Shown here: positions 157-25,067 of the stretch, one piece after another
How positions within the stretch are numbered: position 1 is the first letter of the stretch
Layout: every line of letters begins with the position of its first letter
Assembly (NCBI GenBank): GCA_002938255.1
Contig: PTLB01000003.1
Location: 1-34,386, forward strand
From: Alphaproteobacteria bacterium MarineAlpha5_Bin3
GTDB taxonomy: Bacteria; Pseudomonadota; Alphaproteobacteria; HIMB59; GCA-002718135
Direction of reading: 5' to 3'
Length of the DNA: 34,386 nucleotides
Notes under the pieces: model-generated
What the model was told of the DNA's origin: nothing
Databases searched by the model: none
The model's input: the letters and a program-made list of their open reading frames with translations, nothing else
Translations under genes and position numbers: made by a program

Positions 157-185
157 TCATAAGTTAATATTACCCCATCTAAGAC

Positions 186-336
186 AATTATACCACTTTG
201 AAATCCCCCCTATTTGTATAGTTGCAGACACTCTCTAGTCGCAAATTCGTCAAAAACGAGAAATTACTGCAGACACTTTTGAAAAAGTCTTATATATTGC
301 GACTTGGGGAACATAGTTTAGGAAACAGAGCGCCCC
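186..336 (+). repeat. Intergenic repeat copy 1 (direct repeat with 1451-1614)
   Basis: Shares 'aattatacc.ctttgaaatc.cc.tatttgtata' at the 5' end and 'ttgggGaacatagtttaggaaacagaRcgcccc' at the 3' end with 1451-1614; diverged middle with common 'gtcgcaaa.tc.tcaaaaac.cgaaat'. Confidence 0.8.
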
Positions 337-344
337 GCTACAAT

Positions 345-785
345 TTATAGTTCGTAAACTTCCCAATTAGTTTTTTTTGAAACTCTGTCATATAGAGATT
401 TTGCTCTTAGATTATCATTGCGCGTTATCCACCTAACCAAACCCCATCCTTTTTCTTTAGAAATTTTATCTAATTTTAAAATAAGTTTCTCACCAATTTT
501 TAAACCTCTGTAGTCAGGAGAAACAAACAAATCATCTAAAAAACCAATATCCTTTCCTCTTAAAGGACTTGGCATTCTTCTGTAATGAGCAAAGGCAACT
601 ATTTTTTCTTCAAACTCACAAATCAATCCATTAAGTTCATGCTGTTCATCTGTCAACCAACTCCATATGGTATTTAATATAGTCTGTGTCATTTCAACTT
701 TATAAAACTCAGCATAACCGTGATAGAGTTTTTGCCAGTCTTCTTTATCGTTAAGTTTTATGCTTCTAATAAATGTTGTGTCCAT
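345..785 (-). CDS. GNAT-family N-acetyltransferase
   Basis: ORF with GNAT core (FLDDLFVSPDYRGLKIGEKLILKLDKISKEKGWGLVRWITRNDNLRAKSLYDRV). Start set at the internal Met of MDTTFIRSIKL rather than the ORF-track start at 821. Confidence 0.8.
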   Translation of the reverse strand: MDTTFIRSIKLNDKEDWQKLYHGYAEFYKVEMTQTILNTIWSWLTDEQHELNGLICEFEEKIVAFAHYRRMPSPLRGKDIGFLDDLFVSPDYRGLKIGEKLILKLDKISKEKGWGLVRWITRNDNLRAKSLYDRVSKKTNWEVYEL

Positions 786-889
786 AAGACAATTTATAGC
801 ATAGCACGAAGTCTCCTGCAAAAGTCCTGCAAAAATATTGATTTCCTTACACGAAGTTTTTGAAAATGTGTTGGTTTTTGTGGTATAAA

Positions 890-922
890 TGACTAGAGGC
901 GAGTAACAGAACGCCCCATTTA
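890..922 (+). repeat. Partial third copy of the intergenic repeat 3' end
   Basis: 'aacagaacgccccattta' (905-922) is identical to 1602-1619; preceded by 'gactagaggcgagt', which can pair GGCG/CGCC. Confidence 0.6.
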
Positions 923-955
923 TGACTAATAATTATTTTAGTATTATAATTAAAT

Positions 956-1429
956 ATGAAAACCAAGTTAATTGCACTGTTTGTTATTTCTACATTTTTA
1001 GTTTCTTGTAATACTACGAGACCAACAGACGTAAAAAAATCTGACACCCAAAAAATTACTTCAATTAAATACGGTAATATTATTTCATCAATGCCTGTAA
1101 AAATTAAAGGTGAAGGTAGCGTAATCGGTGCAACAGCAGGAGGATTAATAGGCGGTCTTCTAGGTACTCAAGTATGCGGTGAAAAAGAAACTGCTGGAAC
1201 TAAATGTCAAGATATTGCGATTGTCTACGGAACGATAGGTGGTGCAACTATTGGATATGTTACAGAAGCATTATTAGGCAATCATGATGGTTATCAATAT
1301 ATTATTGACATTGATAATAACAGTGAAGATGTTGCCATAGTTCAAGGAAATAAAACTCTTTTAGAAAATGGTGGGAGAGTAGTAATTATCTATGGAGATA
1401 CAATCAGAGTTCTACCTTATACAGAATAA
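956..1429 (+). CDS. Glycine-zipper outer-membrane lipoprotein (17 kDa antigen / SlyB-like)
   Basis: Signal peptide with lipobox LVSC, then glycine zipper GSVIGATAGGLIGGLLGTQVCG...GTIGGATIGYVTEALLG. Confidence 0.75.
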   Translation: MKTKLIALFVISTFLVSCNTTRPTDVKKSDTQKITSIKYGNIISSMPVKIKGEGSVIGATAGGLIGGLLGTQVCGEKETAGTKCQDIAIVYGTIGGATIGYVTEALLGNHDGYQYIIDIDNNSEDVAIVQGNKTLLENGGRVVIIYGDTIRVLPYTE

Positions 1430-1450
1430 ACTTACCTTGAAATAAATTTC

Positions 1451-1614
1451 AATTATACCTCTTTGAAATCTCCTTATTTGTATAGGTAGCACACAGACAG
1501 AAGTCGCAAAATCATCAAAAACACGAAATCAGAGCACACAGAAAAAGCACACAGGCGCAAAAAACTATTATATTATGTGACATTGGGAACATAGTTTAGG
1601 AAACAGAACGCCCC
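1451..1614 (+). repeat. Intergenic repeat copy 2
   Basis: See 186-336; ends 11 nt before the methyltransferase ATG at 1626. Contains internal AGCACACAG-type direct repeats. Confidence 0.8.
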
Positions 1615-1625
1615 ATTTAAAAAAT

Positions 1626-2261
1626 ATGTCAAAAAAAAAAATAGGATATGATGATGCTTATTCATTAAAGACACCCGAAGATTCCATAAAACTCTACAAA
1701 AAATGGGCACAAGCCTATGATGAAGATTTTGCTTTAAGTTCAAATTATCTTTCACCTGCTAAAATTTGTAGTTTTTTTAATAAACATGCAAGAAATACTG
1801 ATACTCCAATTCTTGATGTTGGTGCTGGAACCGGTTTGGTTGGTGAATGTTTAAATAAAACAGGCAATAAAAAAATCATTGGAATAGATATATCTCCAGA
1901 AATGTTGGAACAAGCAAAATTAAAAGGATGTTATTCTTCCCTAGTGAGTGCTAATGTTACAAAAAAAATTCCATTAAAAAATAATTCTGTTGGAGCAGTT
2001 GTAAGTGCAGGAACTTTTACTCATGGGCATGTGGGACCAGATGCTTTTGATGAACTCTTACGTATTACAAAACCGGGAGGATTATTCGTTTTATCCATTA
2101 ATTCAAAAGTATTTATCAAGGGTGGTTTTCAAGAAAAATTCTCAAGAATTAAAAACAGTATTTCTGTTCCTATTTTTAATGAATTTAAAGCTCATGGTAA
2201 TAATAAAGATGAAAACTTTAGCAAAATAAAAATATTTGCATCTATTTTTCGTAAAAAATGA
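1626..2261 (+). CDS. Class I SAM-dependent methyltransferase
   Basis: Motif I ILDVGAGTGLVGE, IGIDISPEMLEQA, and LLRITKPGGLFVLSIN. Confidence 0.85.
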   Translation: MSKKKIGYDDAYSLKTPEDSIKLYKKWAQAYDEDFALSSNYLSPAKICSFFNKHARNTDTPILDVGAGTGLVGECLNKTGNKKIIGIDISPEMLEQAKLKGCYSSLVSANVTKKIPLKNNSVGAVVSAGTFTHGHVGPDAFDELLRITKPGGLFVLSINSKVFIKGGFQEKFSRIKNSISVPIFNEFKAHGNNKDENFSKIKIFASIFRKK

Positions 2262-2292: not shown

Positions 2293-3234
2293 TTAATTTT
2301 CCTGTAAACCCAACAAATGTTCTTTAATACTTTCCGATAGTGCCAATAAATCGTAACCTCCTTCCAAAAAAGATATAATTCTTCCTTGGCAATGTATATT
2401 TGCAATTTCTATAATTTTTTTTGTTAAATCATAATAATCTTTTGATTCTAAATTAATATGCGCCAAAGGATCTCTTTTATGCGCATCAAAACCAGCGGAT
2501 ATTAATATTATTTCAGGTCTAAATTTATCTATATTATTCAAAATTTTATTTTCTAATATCTTTATAAAATCCTTTCCTTCTGTTCCTGCTAGAATTGGTG
2601 CATTGAAAATATTTCCCATTCCTTTTTCCTGTTCTGAACCTGTGCCTGGAAATAATGGGAATTCGTGTATAGAACCATAAGCAACTGTTTCGTCTTTAAA
2701 GAAAATTTCTTGCGTGCCATTTCCATGATGAACATCGAAATCAATAATCGCAATCTTATTTATTTCATATTTGCTTTGTAAATACCTTGCAGTAACTGCA
2801 ACATTATTTACAAAACAAAATCCATTTGCTCTAACAGTTTCTGCGTGATGACCTGGTGGCCGAACAGCGCAAAATATTCTTTTTTCATTTTCCCTAATAA
2901 GGCTGTCTGCGGCAGCAATACCAGCTCCACAAGATCTTAATATTGCTTTTTTACTTTTGGGACATAAAAGTGTATCGGCATATGGCTCTTTTTCTATTCC
3001 CGTTAATCCAGAATTTGGAATTAATGAAAAAATATTGTTTATATGTGTTGATGGATGTACCAGATAAATATTACGAACATCTGCTAATGGTGCATTTTTA
3101 ATATCTATATCAATACTGCTTATATTTTGAATGGATTTAAGAATAATCTGTACACGTTCTTTTTTTTCTGGGTGATTTGGACCATTATCTTTGAGTAAGC
3201 AGTCTGAGTGTGTGTAAACAATTATTTTTTTCAT
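2293..3234 (-). CDS. Histone deacetylase / acetylpolyamine amidohydrolase family protein
   Basis: RPPGHHAE, DFDVHHGNGTQEIF, SAGFDAHKRDPLA motifs. Confidence 0.9.
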   Translation of the reverse strand: MKKIIVYTHSDCLLKDNGPNHPEKKERVQIILKSIQNISSIDIDIKNAPLADVRNIYLVHPSTHINNIFSLIPNSGLTGIEKEPYADTLLCPKSKKAILRSCGAGIAAADSLIRENEKRIFCAVRPPGHHAETVRANGFCFVNNVAVTARYLQSKYEINKIAIIDFDVHHGNGTQEIFFKDETVAYGSIHEFPLFPGTGSEQEKGMGNIFNAPILAGTEGKDFIKILENKILNNIDKFRPEIILISAGFDAHKRDPLAHINLESKDYYDLTKKIIEIANIHCQGRIISFLEGGYDLLALSESIKEHLLGLQEN

Positions 3235-3387
3235 TACTCCATCTTACATTTATTTTATTAGTTTCAAAATTCGTTATCCGTATTTGAATAGCTAGTACAC
3301 ACTTTAACTGAATACTCTTACGAAAAACTGTATATACTATGTTTAAGTGATGTTTCTTCTAATTACAGAACATAGCAATATTTAAAA

Positions 3388-3846
3388 ATGAAAATCCACT
3401 ATTCTCAAATCTTAAAAAAAAACATGCTAAATGTTTTTCGCGATGTTCTAAAAAATATAGAAGTAAATGGTTTGCAAGAAGGCCATCATCTTTATATATC
3501 CTTTAAAACAGATAATAAAAAAGTTGTTATTCCAAATTGGTTAAAGGAAAAACATCCAAAAGAAATCACGATAGTCATTCAATATGAATATTGGAATTTC
3601 AAAGTAAAAAATGACTCATTCAATATTGGGCTATCATTTAATGACATAAATGCAGACATATCTGTTCCATTTGATTCTGTAATCTCTTTTGCCGATCCAT
3701 ATGCAAATTTTGGATTAAAACTTATAAATGAAGAAATTAATAAAAAATTAAGTGACAAAAAACCAAAAAGAAAAAAATCTGTTATTAAAAAAAATAAAGA
3801 CAAAGATAATATAATCGAATTTCAAAAGTTTAAAAAATTAAGATAA
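3388..3846 (+). CDS. sspB: SspB-family ClpXP adaptor (stringent starvation protein B, alphaproteobacterial type)
   Basis: GHHLYISFKTD...IPNWLKEKHPKEITIVIQYEYWNFKV...FNIGLSFNDI...ISVPFDSVISFADPYANFGLKL matches the family pattern. Confidence 0.8.
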   Translation: MKIHYSQILKKNMLNVFRDVLKNIEVNGLQEGHHLYISFKTDNKKVVIPNWLKEKHPKEITIVIQYEYWNFKVKNDSFNIGLSFNDINADISVPFDSVISFADPYANFGLKLINEEINKKLSDKKPKRKKSVIKKNKDKDNIIEFQKFKKLR

Positions 3847-4467
3847 ATATTTAGAATTCACAACTTTGCCAGATTCATAAGTTATAATAAATGGGCTGCC
3901 AGTTGGAATCTCTATTTTTGAAATTTCTTCTGCTTTATACAAGCCAACTTGTATCATCGATGCTCGCAGTGAATTGCCATGGGCTGCTATTAACACATCT
4001 TGACCCTCATTGATTTTAGGTTCTATAAAGTTGATAAAATATGGCTTAACTCTTGTAACAACATTTTCCAGACTTTCTCCTCCAGGAGGAGAAACATCGT
4101 ACGAACGGCGCCATATGCGAACTTGCTCTTTACCGTATTTATTAGCAGTCTCTTCTTTATTAAATCCAACCAAATCTCCGTAATCCCTCTCATTTAAACT
4201 TTGGTCTTTGGTCATAAGAAGTTGACCGTCACTCCAAAATTGTTCCAAGTTCATTTCTTTAATTGCTAACTCAGCCGTTTTGGTGGCTCTTTGCAAAACA
4301 CTACTGAAAATTACATCAATATGCACTTTATTTTTTTTCATTAATTGACCAGCGACTTTGGCCTCTGCAATGCCCTGTTCGGTCAATGGTACATCTTCCC
4401 ATCCAGTAAATCGATTTTCAAGATTCCATTGACTTTGGCCATGGCGTAAAAGGATAAGGTTATTCAT
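3838..4467 (-). CDS. gpmA: 2,3-bisphosphoglycerate-dependent phosphoglycerate mutase
   Basis: LLRHGQSQWNLENRFTGWEDVPLTEQG, SLNERDYGDLVG, PPGGESLENVVTRV, AAHGNSLRA. Confidence 0.95.
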   Translation of the reverse strand: MNNLILLRHGQSQWNLENRFTGWEDVPLTEQGIAEAKVAGQLMKKNKVHIDVIFSSVLQRATKTAELAIKEMNLEQFWSDGQLLMTKDQSLNERDYGDLVGFNKEETANKYGKEQVRIWRRSYDVSPPGGESLENVVTRVKPYFINFIEPKINEGQDVLIAAHGNSLRASMIQVGLYKAEEISKIEIPTGSPFIITYESGKVVNSKYLS

Positions 4468-4536
4468 AAAATAAATATTTTTAATTCAATGATTGAGTTT
4501 ATGTTATACAAAAATATAATTAAATTAATACAAAAA

Positions 4537-5922
4537 ATGAAAAAAAAATACAGAATAGAATTTGATAGTTTGGGAAGCAAAAAAATAGACTCTACCCAAC
4601 TATGGGGAGCACAAACACAGCGATCACTTGAAAATTTCAAAATTGGTAATGAAAAAATTCCAAAAGAAATAATCATTGCATTTGGTCATCAGAAAAAAGC
4701 TGCCGCTCTTGCCAATATAAAAATTGGCAAATTAAATTCTAAAATCGGAAAAGCGATCATTGATGCCTGTAATCAAATTATCAATTTAAAGCTTATTGAT
4801 GAATTTCCACTTTCTATCTGGCAAACAGGTTCAGGAACGCAAACCAATATGAATGCTAATGAAGTTATTAGTAATTATGCTATTAAAAAGTTGAAAGGGA
4901 AAATTGGATCTAAAAAACCAGTCCATCCTAATGATCATGTTAATCTATCCCAATCTTCTAATGATACTTTTCCAACAGTAATGCACATAACTTGCAATGA
5001 ATTGTTACAAGATAAATTAAACATATCATTACGTAATTTGATTAAAGAATTAAAATCTAAGTCACAAAAATTCAACAGAATTATAAAAATTGGTCGAACA
5101 CATACTCAAGACGCTATACCTTTAACATTAGGACAGGTATTTTCAGGATATTTAGAACAAATAAAAAATAATCAAAAAAGAATATTACAAGCTCAAAAAG
5201 AACTGCTTTATTTAGCCCAAGGGGGAACAGCTGTTGGAACAGGTATGAATGCTCCTAAAAATTTTGATAAAATTTTTTGTAAATACTTATCATTATTAAC
5301 TAAAAGCAAATATTTTCCTGCCCCTAATAAATTTGAATCCATTGCATCGCACGATCCCATGGTAAACCTATCTGGAAGTCTTAATACTCTTGCTACTTCT
5401 CTTTTAAAAATATCAAATGATTTACGTTTTTTAGCATCAGGTCCACGTTCAGGTTTAGGAGAGTTAAAGTTGCCTGAAAACGAACCTGGATCTTCTATAA
5501 TGCCTGGTAAAGTAAATCCAACACAAATTGAGGCGTTATCAATGGTGTGCACCCAAGTAATTGGAAATCACACAACAATTACTATTGCTGGATCGCAAGG
5601 TCACTTTGAACTAAATGCTTTTAAACCAGTGATTATTTTTAATAATTTACAATCAATACATTTACTTTCTGATTCAATTGACAGTTTTATTAAATACTGT
5701 CTTCGAGGTTTAAAGCCAGATGTTTATCGAATAAAACAACATTTAGATAATTCTTTAATGCTTGTCACTGCTTTGAATGAACATATAGGGTATGACAATG
5801 CTGCAAAAATTGCAAAAAAAGCTTTCAAAGAAAACTTAACACTTAAAGAAGCAGCTATAAAACTTGGGATGATAGAAGCAAATGAGTTTGATAGGATAGT
5901 TCAACCAAAAAAAATGATTTAG
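4537..5922 (+). CDS. fumC: Fumarate hydratase class II
   Basis: GSGTQTNMNANEV, GRTHTQDAIPLTLGQ, signature GSSIMPGKVNPTQ. Start set at MKKKYRIEFDSLG (internal Met of the ORF-track 4489 ORF). Confidence 0.95.
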   Translation: MKKKYRIEFDSLGSKKIDSTQLWGAQTQRSLENFKIGNEKIPKEIIIAFGHQKKAAALANIKIGKLNSKIGKAIIDACNQIINLKLIDEFPLSIWQTGSGTQTNMNANEVISNYAIKKLKGKIGSKKPVHPNDHVNLSQSSNDTFPTVMHITCNELLQDKLNISLRNLIKELKSKSQKFNRIIKIGRTHTQDAIPLTLGQVFSGYLEQIKNNQKRILQAQKELLYLAQGGTAVGTGMNAPKNFDKIFCKYLSLLTKSKYFPAPNKFESIASHDPMVNLSGSLNTLATSLLKISNDLRFLASGPRSGLGELKLPENEPGSSIMPGKVNPTQIEALSMVCTQVIGNHTTITIAGSQGHFELNAFKPVIIFNNLQSIHLLSDSIDSFIKYCLRGLKPDVYRIKQHLDNSLMLVTALNEHIGYDNAAKIAKKAFKENLTLKEAAIKLGMIEANEFDRIVQPKKMI

Positions 5923-5929
5923 GTTTAGA

Positions 5930-6802
5930 TTAAATTATCTTGAAATTAGATTTATCTGAAAATATTTTACGCAAAAGTTGAATGTTTAAAAAATGGCCTG
6001 ATTTTTTTCCATAGAAATAACCTTGAATAGGTTTGCCAGCTAAGTATAAATCTCCTATTGAATCCAGCATCTTATGTCGAACAAACTCATCTTCAAAACG
6101 TAAACCTTCTTTATTTAAAATTTTTTTGTCCCCAACTACAACGGCATTTTCAAGTGAACCTCCGAGAGCAAATCCGTTAGCTCTCAAATAATCTACATCT
6201 TTTTCAAATCCAAAAGTTCTCGCAAAAGAAATATCTTTCTTATAGTTGCCATTAACTAATTGAAGTTGGCATGCCTGTTTATTAACTAAATGACTTGCAA
6301 ATTCTATTTCAAAATTAATTGCAAATTGTTTGTCAGGAAGAATTTTTGTAAAACTATCACCTTTGGTAACTACAACTTCTTTTTCTATCAAAATTATTTG
6401 GCGATCAATCTCTTGTTTTACTATACCTTTACTTTCAAATAATTCTACAAAAGGTAATGAACTACCATCCATGATGGGAACTTCAGGTCCATCAATCAGT
6501 ATATTTACATTATCAATATGCATACCTGATAGAGCACTCATTAAATGCTCTATAGTAGATACTGAAGCTCCTTCTTTATTTGCAATAGTTGTACATAGGT
6601 TCGTTGAAGTAACATTTGACCATAATGCATTAATGATATTGCTATTTTTTTGATCAGTTCTTATAAATCTTATTCCATTGTTAATTTCTGCTGGCTCAAT
6701 ATTTATAGCTACTTTCTTTCCTGAATGTAAGCCTACACCTGATAAAGATATGCTCGAATTTATTGTTTGCTGTTTTTTAGATGTATTTGAGCTTGCAATC
6801 AT
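5930..6802 (-). CDS. lpxC: UDP-3-O-acyl-N-acetylglucosamine deacetylase
   Basis: SLSGVGLHSGKKV, EHLMSALSGMHIDNVNI, DGSSLPFVE, FVRHKMLDSIGDLYLAG. Start set at ATG 6802 (MIASSNTSKK); the ORF-track start at 6832 is a GTG inside a terminator hairpin. Confidence 0.95.
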   Translation of the reverse strand: MIASSNTSKKQQTINSSISLSGVGLHSGKKVAINIEPAEINNGIRFIRTDQKNSNIINALWSNVTSTNLCTTIANKEGASVSTIEHLMSALSGMHIDNVNILIDGPEVPIMDGSSLPFVELFESKGIVKQEIDRQIILIEKEVVVTKGDSFTKILPDKQFAINFEIEFASHLVNKQACQLQLVNGNYKKDISFARTFGFEKDVDYLRANGFALGGSLENAVVVGDKKILNKEGLRFEDEFVRHKMLDSIGDLYLAGKPIQGYFYGKKSGHFLNIQLLRKIFSDKSNFKII

Positions 6803-24656: not shown

Positions 24657-24700
24657 TATACTAGGTTAATTACAGAGTGTTCTATAAATGTTCACGATAT

Positions 24701-25043
24701 AGATGGTGCATAAGCCGGGTTCTGTAAATTTATAAAAAAAATTTGATGATCATTAATCTAGAGCAAGTGTCACCACTTGCTTCAAGCAGCCTACCCGAGT
24801 AACTTAACTGGAAATTAATTGTTACTCCTATTTGGCCTTGCTCCTAAAAGGGTTTTCACTGCCATAATTGTTACCAATTATGCGGTGAGCTCTTACCTCA
24901 CCTTTTCACCCTTACCTTCAAAAAGGCGGTATGTTTTCTGTTGCACTTTCCCTAAGCTTGCACTTGCCAGGTATTACCTGGTTTTATTTTCCAGCGGAGC
25001 CCGGACTTTCCTCTTGATTGCTCAAGCGATCATCGCACCATCT
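24701..25043 (-). ncRNA. rnpB: RNase P RNA (bacterial class A)
   Basis: Minus strand 5' AGATGGTGCGATGATCGC...GAGGAAAGTCCGGGCTCC...; 3' ...ACAGAACCCGGCTTATGCACCATCT, whose ends pair as P1. Ends approximate. Confidence 0.95.
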
Positions 25044-25067
25044 TAATAAGAAAATAATGGAAAAAAA

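Follow-up and report, generated by a model that had tools for sequence, protein, structure and literature searches.

What are the repeats of about 150 bp that stand between small, unrelated genes at one end of an ocean alphaproteobacterial contig? They lie at the left end of the window, by which we mean the whole stretch of 34,386 nucleotides analysed here, from Alphaproteobacteria bacterium MarineAlpha5_Bin3 of the order HIMB59. A sequence-only reading of this DNA had left three options: a mobile or cassette boundary element, a dispersed noncoding RNA, or a shared promoter or leader. The first was well chosen. We are confident that the repeats are attachment (att) sites of small elements docked in tandem at the 3′ end of the permuted ssrA gene. 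Below, G, C and L numbers are our handles for genomes, contigs and loci.

The repeats and their shared core

The two longer copies in the window are direct repeats (185-336 and 1450-1619) and, as had been noticed, have near-identical ends and a diverged middle: identity is 92% in the 24-nt 5′ block, 85% in the 55-nt 3′ block and 73% in between. Their terminal 18 nt are indeed found again, exactly, at 905-922. What had been taken there for a partial third copy is the core of a complete site with a different arm type, at about 800-917. Searched with copy 2, the window's own genome (874 kb, 81 contigs, 80% complete) gives copy 1 (E=1e-20) and the 905-922 site, and no other credible match. Among 60 relatives the same query matches in 12 genomes, with E down to 6.5e-40 and in some of them with several matches per contig. 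The repeat is thus not a product of chance, since it is also present in relatives. It is not dispersed, as had been supposed: each genome has its copies at a single place, downstream of ssrA. Scans of the repeat region against Rfam, at gathering and relaxed thresholds, and of the repeat against phage and plasmid collections give no match, nor does a pattern search for the class A site (see below) in a genome-contig collection.

At their common 3′ end, with the core ACAGAACGCCCC, the repeats reproduce the 3′ end of ssrA, the alphaproteobacterial tmRNA gene in its permuted form, and their shared end GGxAACAGAACGCCCC corresponds to the final 16 bases of this gene. In the relatives the arrays begin exactly at ssrA, and the outermost repeat runs into the permuted gene. 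Each of the first six arrays examined has both a match to Rfam RF01849 (alpha_tmRNA; 190.8-230 bits) and a tmRNA called by ARAGORN, with tags of the ANDN..AA type. The six contigs follow one layout, a repeat, one or a few small genes and again a repeat, at the same chromosomal place within each family. All six lead to ssrA in the direction of the window's left end. The gene stands above the family cut-off in 55 of the 60 relatives, and beside their arrays it is intact, with full-length RF01849 matches. It is not found in the fragmented assembly of the window's own genome, and its position beside the window array is therefore predicted from synteny.

Within the order the core is present in 120 of 162 genomes, and 47 of the 162 (counted by hand from the pattern-search table) have at least two. 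Multiple cores lie almost always on one strand, and the reversed pattern, used as a control in the 162 genomes, gives zero matches. Searched across the class, the exact core occurs outside the order in single matches only, which are uninformative because the ends of ssrA differ between orders. Many of the relatives are genomes of single cells, a point against binning artefacts.

Table 1. Features at the left end of the window (1-based positions; the strand is empty where none applies).
Feature	Position	Strand	Remarks
Cassette remainder, cut by the contig start	1-184		No long ORF; ssrA beyond this end by synteny
att site, class A	185-336	+	Arm ~185-320; core GGAAACAGAGCGCCCC 321-336, equal to the ssrA 3′ end; aligned with 15 other class A sites
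Distal arm iteron GCAGACACT	224-232	+	Same word at 269-277
Proximal arm iteron GCAGACACT	269-277	+	
GNAT acetyltransferase, cargo of cassette 337-917	345-785	-	PF00583, E=1e-14; ORF extendable to TTG at 821
att site, second arm type	800-917	+	Core AGTAACAGAACGCCCC 902-917; direct repeats CTCCTGCAAAA 813-823 and GTCCTGCAAAA 824-834; similar arms in G027, G018, G061 and G005
Small glycine-zipper lipoprotein, cargo of cassette 918-1614	956-1429	+	phrog_13877, E=1.6e-9; weak NCBIfam YiaD glycine-zipper match; no Pfam family
att site, class A	1450-1614	+	Core GGAAACAGAACGCCCC 1599-1614
Distal arm iteron GCACACAGA	1489-1497	+	
Two proximal arm iterons	1534-1555	+	GCACACAGA 1534-1542; GCACACAGG 1547-1555
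Methyltransferase, first gene past the last core	1626-2261	+	PF08241, E=1.9e-18
Locus flank: histone-deacetylase-like, SspB, gpmA-like, fumarase	2293-5922		

The window contains two whole elements, with the acetyltransferase and the lipoprotein as cargo, and part of a third (1-336). Its array is cut by the assembly, since the window starts at the first base of contig C23. The methyltransferase beyond the last core is possibly a further cassette with its outer site lost, because in G087 this methyltransferase (5303-5941) forms a core-bounded cassette between cores at 5277 and 5958. The same sspB-gpmA-fumarase flank is found next to the ssrA arrays in family f1.

Two observations concern the assemblies. 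In G004:C22, G006:C14 and G007:C62, and at base 1 of the window, contigs break 5 to ~180 bp past the end of ssrA or within the array, as expected if this point is highly variable in the population. G018 has two different ssrA genes, on C33 and C55 (L034 and L033), which could be contamination or a second tmRNA; this genome also has a segment of 11.8 kb between cores, with genes for transporters and sugar metabolism.

Anatomy of the sites and exact insertion

With ssrA placed at the left, a cassette starts immediately behind one core, and its right end is formed by a long arm and the core that comes next. Each repeat of about 150 bp is an attachment site, composed of an arm with short direct repeats and the ssrA-derived core. 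Single-linkage clustering of the arms gives two large classes and several small ones: class E/F has 36 copies in 25 genomes, and the other large class has 25 copies in 17 genomes, with all three window sites within it. Class A proper has the fixed scaffold AAGTCGCAAATTCRTCAAAAA ... TGCGACTTRGGG ... core. Its direct repeats vary between elements and agree within an element: the iteron word is GCAGACACT in window copy 1 and GCACACAGA in copy 2, and GCATAGAGT, TGCATACAGT and TAGCACGCACT elsewhere. Of the 83 arms, 28 show tandem repeats beyond the level of shuffled sequences. Distal iterons resemble the proximal ones of the same element more closely than those of other elements (permutation p=5e-5, in a test designed after the pattern had been seen and with some of the arms closely related). 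The iterons, specific to each element, are putative arm-type sites like those of a lambda-type attP, probably bound by the N-terminal domain of an integrase.

Elements are inserted with single-base accuracy, directly behind the core. For 18 of the 44 multi-core arrays, the flank beyond the outermost core matches what follows ssrA in a relative without the insert, usually from the first base or bases behind the core (AG-897-D18 against G033, 250/250; G042 against G047, 240/250; G055 against G039, 236/248). The DNA behind the core nearest to ssrA gives no match to this flank of the uninserted relative. The comparison of empty and occupied sites holds in both families. Whole elements also recur beside different neighbours: cassette 4 of G045 is cassette 1 of G053, 96% identical from core to core and with different left neighbours, and further pairs are the second cassettes of G087 and G102 (88%) and G085 cassette 2 with G087 cassette 4 (91%). 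G019, of family f1, and G051, of family f2, have in common an arm type that is nearly identical over its inner 60 bp, a likeness that suggests transfer between the families.

Could the arrays turn over mainly by homologous recombination, either from one direct repeat to another or, following transformation, at conserved flanking sequence, with the site-specific integrase only historical? We consider this unlikely, yet it is the alternative that survives best. Class A arms resemble one another over ~130 bp (with a mean column identity of 71% in 16 aligned sites), some arms look hybrid (G087 #5, G092 #2), the integrase is missing from almost all elements, and homologous recombination has been proposed for other HIMB59 islands (PMC10734472). 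However, the insertion points coincide exactly with the core, even though the stretch common to ssrA and most arms is only ~12-16 bp; unrelated arm types have the same junction; and two integrases adjacent to ssrA exist. RecA does not exchange sequences of 12-16 bp efficiently. Some of the shuffling may still depend on RecA, because within one class the length of the arms suffices for homologous recombination and some appear to be hybrids.

The scale of the units was measured on an interval map of 80 loci, with 77 ssrA ends and 84 further cores that delimit 81 repeat-to-repeat intervals. The median interval is 1,176 bp and 75 are shorter than 2.5 kb; exactly one ORF of at least 60 aa is present in 48 of the 81, and none in three. 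Occupied genomes, from two families, hold about one to seven cassettes each, and most elements carry one to three cargo genes and no integrase. Among the 98 cassette proteins scanned, the commonest Pfam matches have no more than three members each; they are methyltransferases, GNAT acetyltransferases, endonuclease/phosphatase, MORN repeats and one type I restriction system. The latter lies between cores in L048 (G051), ~5.6 kb long.

The gene nearest to the arm reads away from the long arm in 59 of 78 intervals (59:19), with its start codon ~160 bp from the core. This bias would fit a noncoding RNA or a regulatory leader upstream of accessory genes, as the sequence-only reading had considered, and we regard that explanation as very improbable. 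Besides the lack of an Rfam match, an RNAalifold analysis of 16 copies yields neither a conserved nor a covarying fold (3 pairs, 0 compensatory), which speaks against the RNA. The scan for promoters and terminators remains at chance level, with no promoter signal above shuffles; given the gene orientation, a shared promoter or leader may still be a side function. Moreover, G067 has a gene-less copy, a 152-bp interval made up of both ends of a class A cassette and nothing else.

Integrases and a proposed mechanism

G063 has an intact tyrosine integrase 100 bp after the 3′ end of ssrA (PF00589, E=1.8e-25), in whose sequence the expected R, K, H-x-x-R, H and Y residues can be read. A frameshifted relative lies in G028, in an island of 4.2 kb with a core at each end. 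The two are 51-58% identical, and every other relative in the order is at most 39% identical; many other integrases of the order adjoin tRNA genes. An ssrA-specific integrase lineage thus exists. An integrase beside ssrA is seen in G063 and G028 only, and the window elements have none; neither an integrase together with class A arms nor viral relatives of the G063 integrase were found. We file the window-type elements as non-autonomous rather than as autonomous islands because they are without an integrase of their own, and we infer that they are mobilised in trans by an integrase supplied elsewhere. In the contig start G000:C28:21-449 (L238) there is an integrase fragment whose upstream frame resembles a translated tRNA end; it is probably part of a tRNA-targeted element.

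We suggest the following course of events. Each element would recombine as a circle bearing attP, made of the long arm with its element-specific direct repeats, the 12-bp core ACAGAACGCCCC and a short arm. A tyrosine integrase would join attP to the end of ssrA or to any earlier core. Joining at the core would leave ssrA intact and stack new elements. The integrase would come in trans, as it must since most elements lack one, either from an ssrA island like those of G063 and G028 or from outside.

Phage and plasmid collections and viral contigs gave neither an excised circle nor a phage or plasmid that bears attP. Core matches in AT-rich marine viral contigs are phage-encoded permuted tmRNA genes. 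Those in GC-rich viral contigs are due to chance, and so is the match in L208, inside a primase-like gene. In the AT-rich IMG/VR contigs L085, L089, L091, L092, L095, L097, L099 and L103 the permuted tmRNA has the same 3′ end and is directly followed by other genes, in line with the two-piece phage-borne tmRNA reported for marine myophages (PMC9004378).

The layout of the arrays is that of a true integron or a sedentary chromosomal integron with the repeats as attC: repeat and gene alternate, the units are mostly of single genes, the sites measure 60-150 bp and genes share an orientation bias. We nevertheless give the integron almost no credence. The junction is the ssrA 3′ end ACAGAACGCCCC, with no GTTRRRY/RYYYAAC heptamer there on reading; the arms have direct repeats and not an attC-like foldable palindrome; and the one ssrA-adjacent integrase scanned reaches 37.5 bits against a cut-off of 265 for TIGR02249, the integron integrase IntI. 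Hardly any weight goes either to a transposon-like repeat (a MITE or IS remnant) placed between genes by chance, for which one may cite the short noncoding repeat and its gene-less copies, since the copies occur only downstream of ssrA, in a single orientation and with a core identical to ssrA, and neither transposase nor terminal inverted repeats are seen.

A wider proposal extends the docking of elements at ssrA to a non-integron gene-cassette system. In it, circles of ~1 kb, mostly of a single gene, would circulate ocean-wide with a common ssrA core and a multitude of arm-iteron specificities, every one of them recognised by a separate integrase in trans; ssrA would be a permanent, order-wide dock, with arms and integrases co-evolving. 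We offer this as a tentative idea, which we hold to be somewhat less probable than its opposite.

Relation to known systems

The target is of a known kind, a hot spot of tandem islands at ssrA, and its form here is unusual and cassette-like. As in islands integrated at ssrA, the boundaries consist of the ssrA 3′ end and its direct repeats, the joined site is found in uninserted relatives, and ssrA is intact in the relatives. The closest likeness is in Dehalococcoides, where several islands are stacked downstream of ssrA, bounded by short direct repeats of its 3′ end, and form a hot spot for strain differences (McMurdie et al. 2011; PMC3146451). Those islands have a 20-bp repeat, insertion in the T-loop part of ssrA and the serine recombinase DsiB; the integration module is present in 16 of 31 islands, and the vcr islands are ~12 kb long (PMC3146451). 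Unlike them, the elements described here are targeted to the 3′ end of a permuted ssrA, which lies outside its tRNA-like part, and use tyrosine integrases; they have a median of 1.2 kb, nearly always lack the integrase and have ~130-bp arms of several types. The DsiA/DsiB serine recombinase module with its RecF, ParB and Mom homologues is absent among the Pfam families listed for the cargo, and the recombinases adjacent to ssrA belong to PF00589.

'Traffic at the tmRNA gene' (Williams 2003) reportedly describes tyrosine integrases with independent ssrA specificity, as well as arrays, and one case in which a permuted ssrA of a cyanobacterium is used at its 3′ end, outside the tRNA-like part. 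The elements there are said to be integrase-bearing islands and prophages of many kb. To our knowledge, arrays of mostly single-gene elements are not described in that work. Tycheposons are small integrative elements at RNA genes of a streamlined ocean bacterium, some with cargo only; their targets are tRNA genes, and they are larger and not known to be stacked as units of one or two genes. Whereas a tycheposon is recognised by a tRNA target with a tyrosine recombinase and/or satellite modules, the target here is ssrA and the window elements are cargo only. Tycheposons of Prochlorococcus have been listed among marine satellites (PMC11389934). Integron cassette arrays are alike in their rows of mostly single promiscuous genes at one locus with recombination sites between them; here, in contrast, the sites have an ssrA core and arm iterons instead of attC, and the integrase scanned beside ssrA is no integron integrase.

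The literature searched does not describe ssrA cassette arrays in this group, and the cassette scale and the diverse arms look new. A study of HIMB59 islands notes the absence of tRNA or IS hallmarks and mentions neither tmRNA, ssrA nor integrase (PMC10734472). For single-gene exchange in streamlined ocean bacteria with few transposons and prophages, the arrays offer a defined dock with base-exact boundaries: a fixed spot in tiny genomes where genes are swapped, with the layout of an integron and a different joining site. The core ACAGAACGCCCC can serve as a search key for the cassette pool in metagenomes, and the pair of integrase and att site is testable.

Two minor observations belong to the window. 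The gene sspB (3388-3846), for the adaptor of tmRNA-tagged proteins, lies near the ssrA array in family f1. An RNase P RNA of class A, at 24695-25045 on the minus strand, is ordinary.
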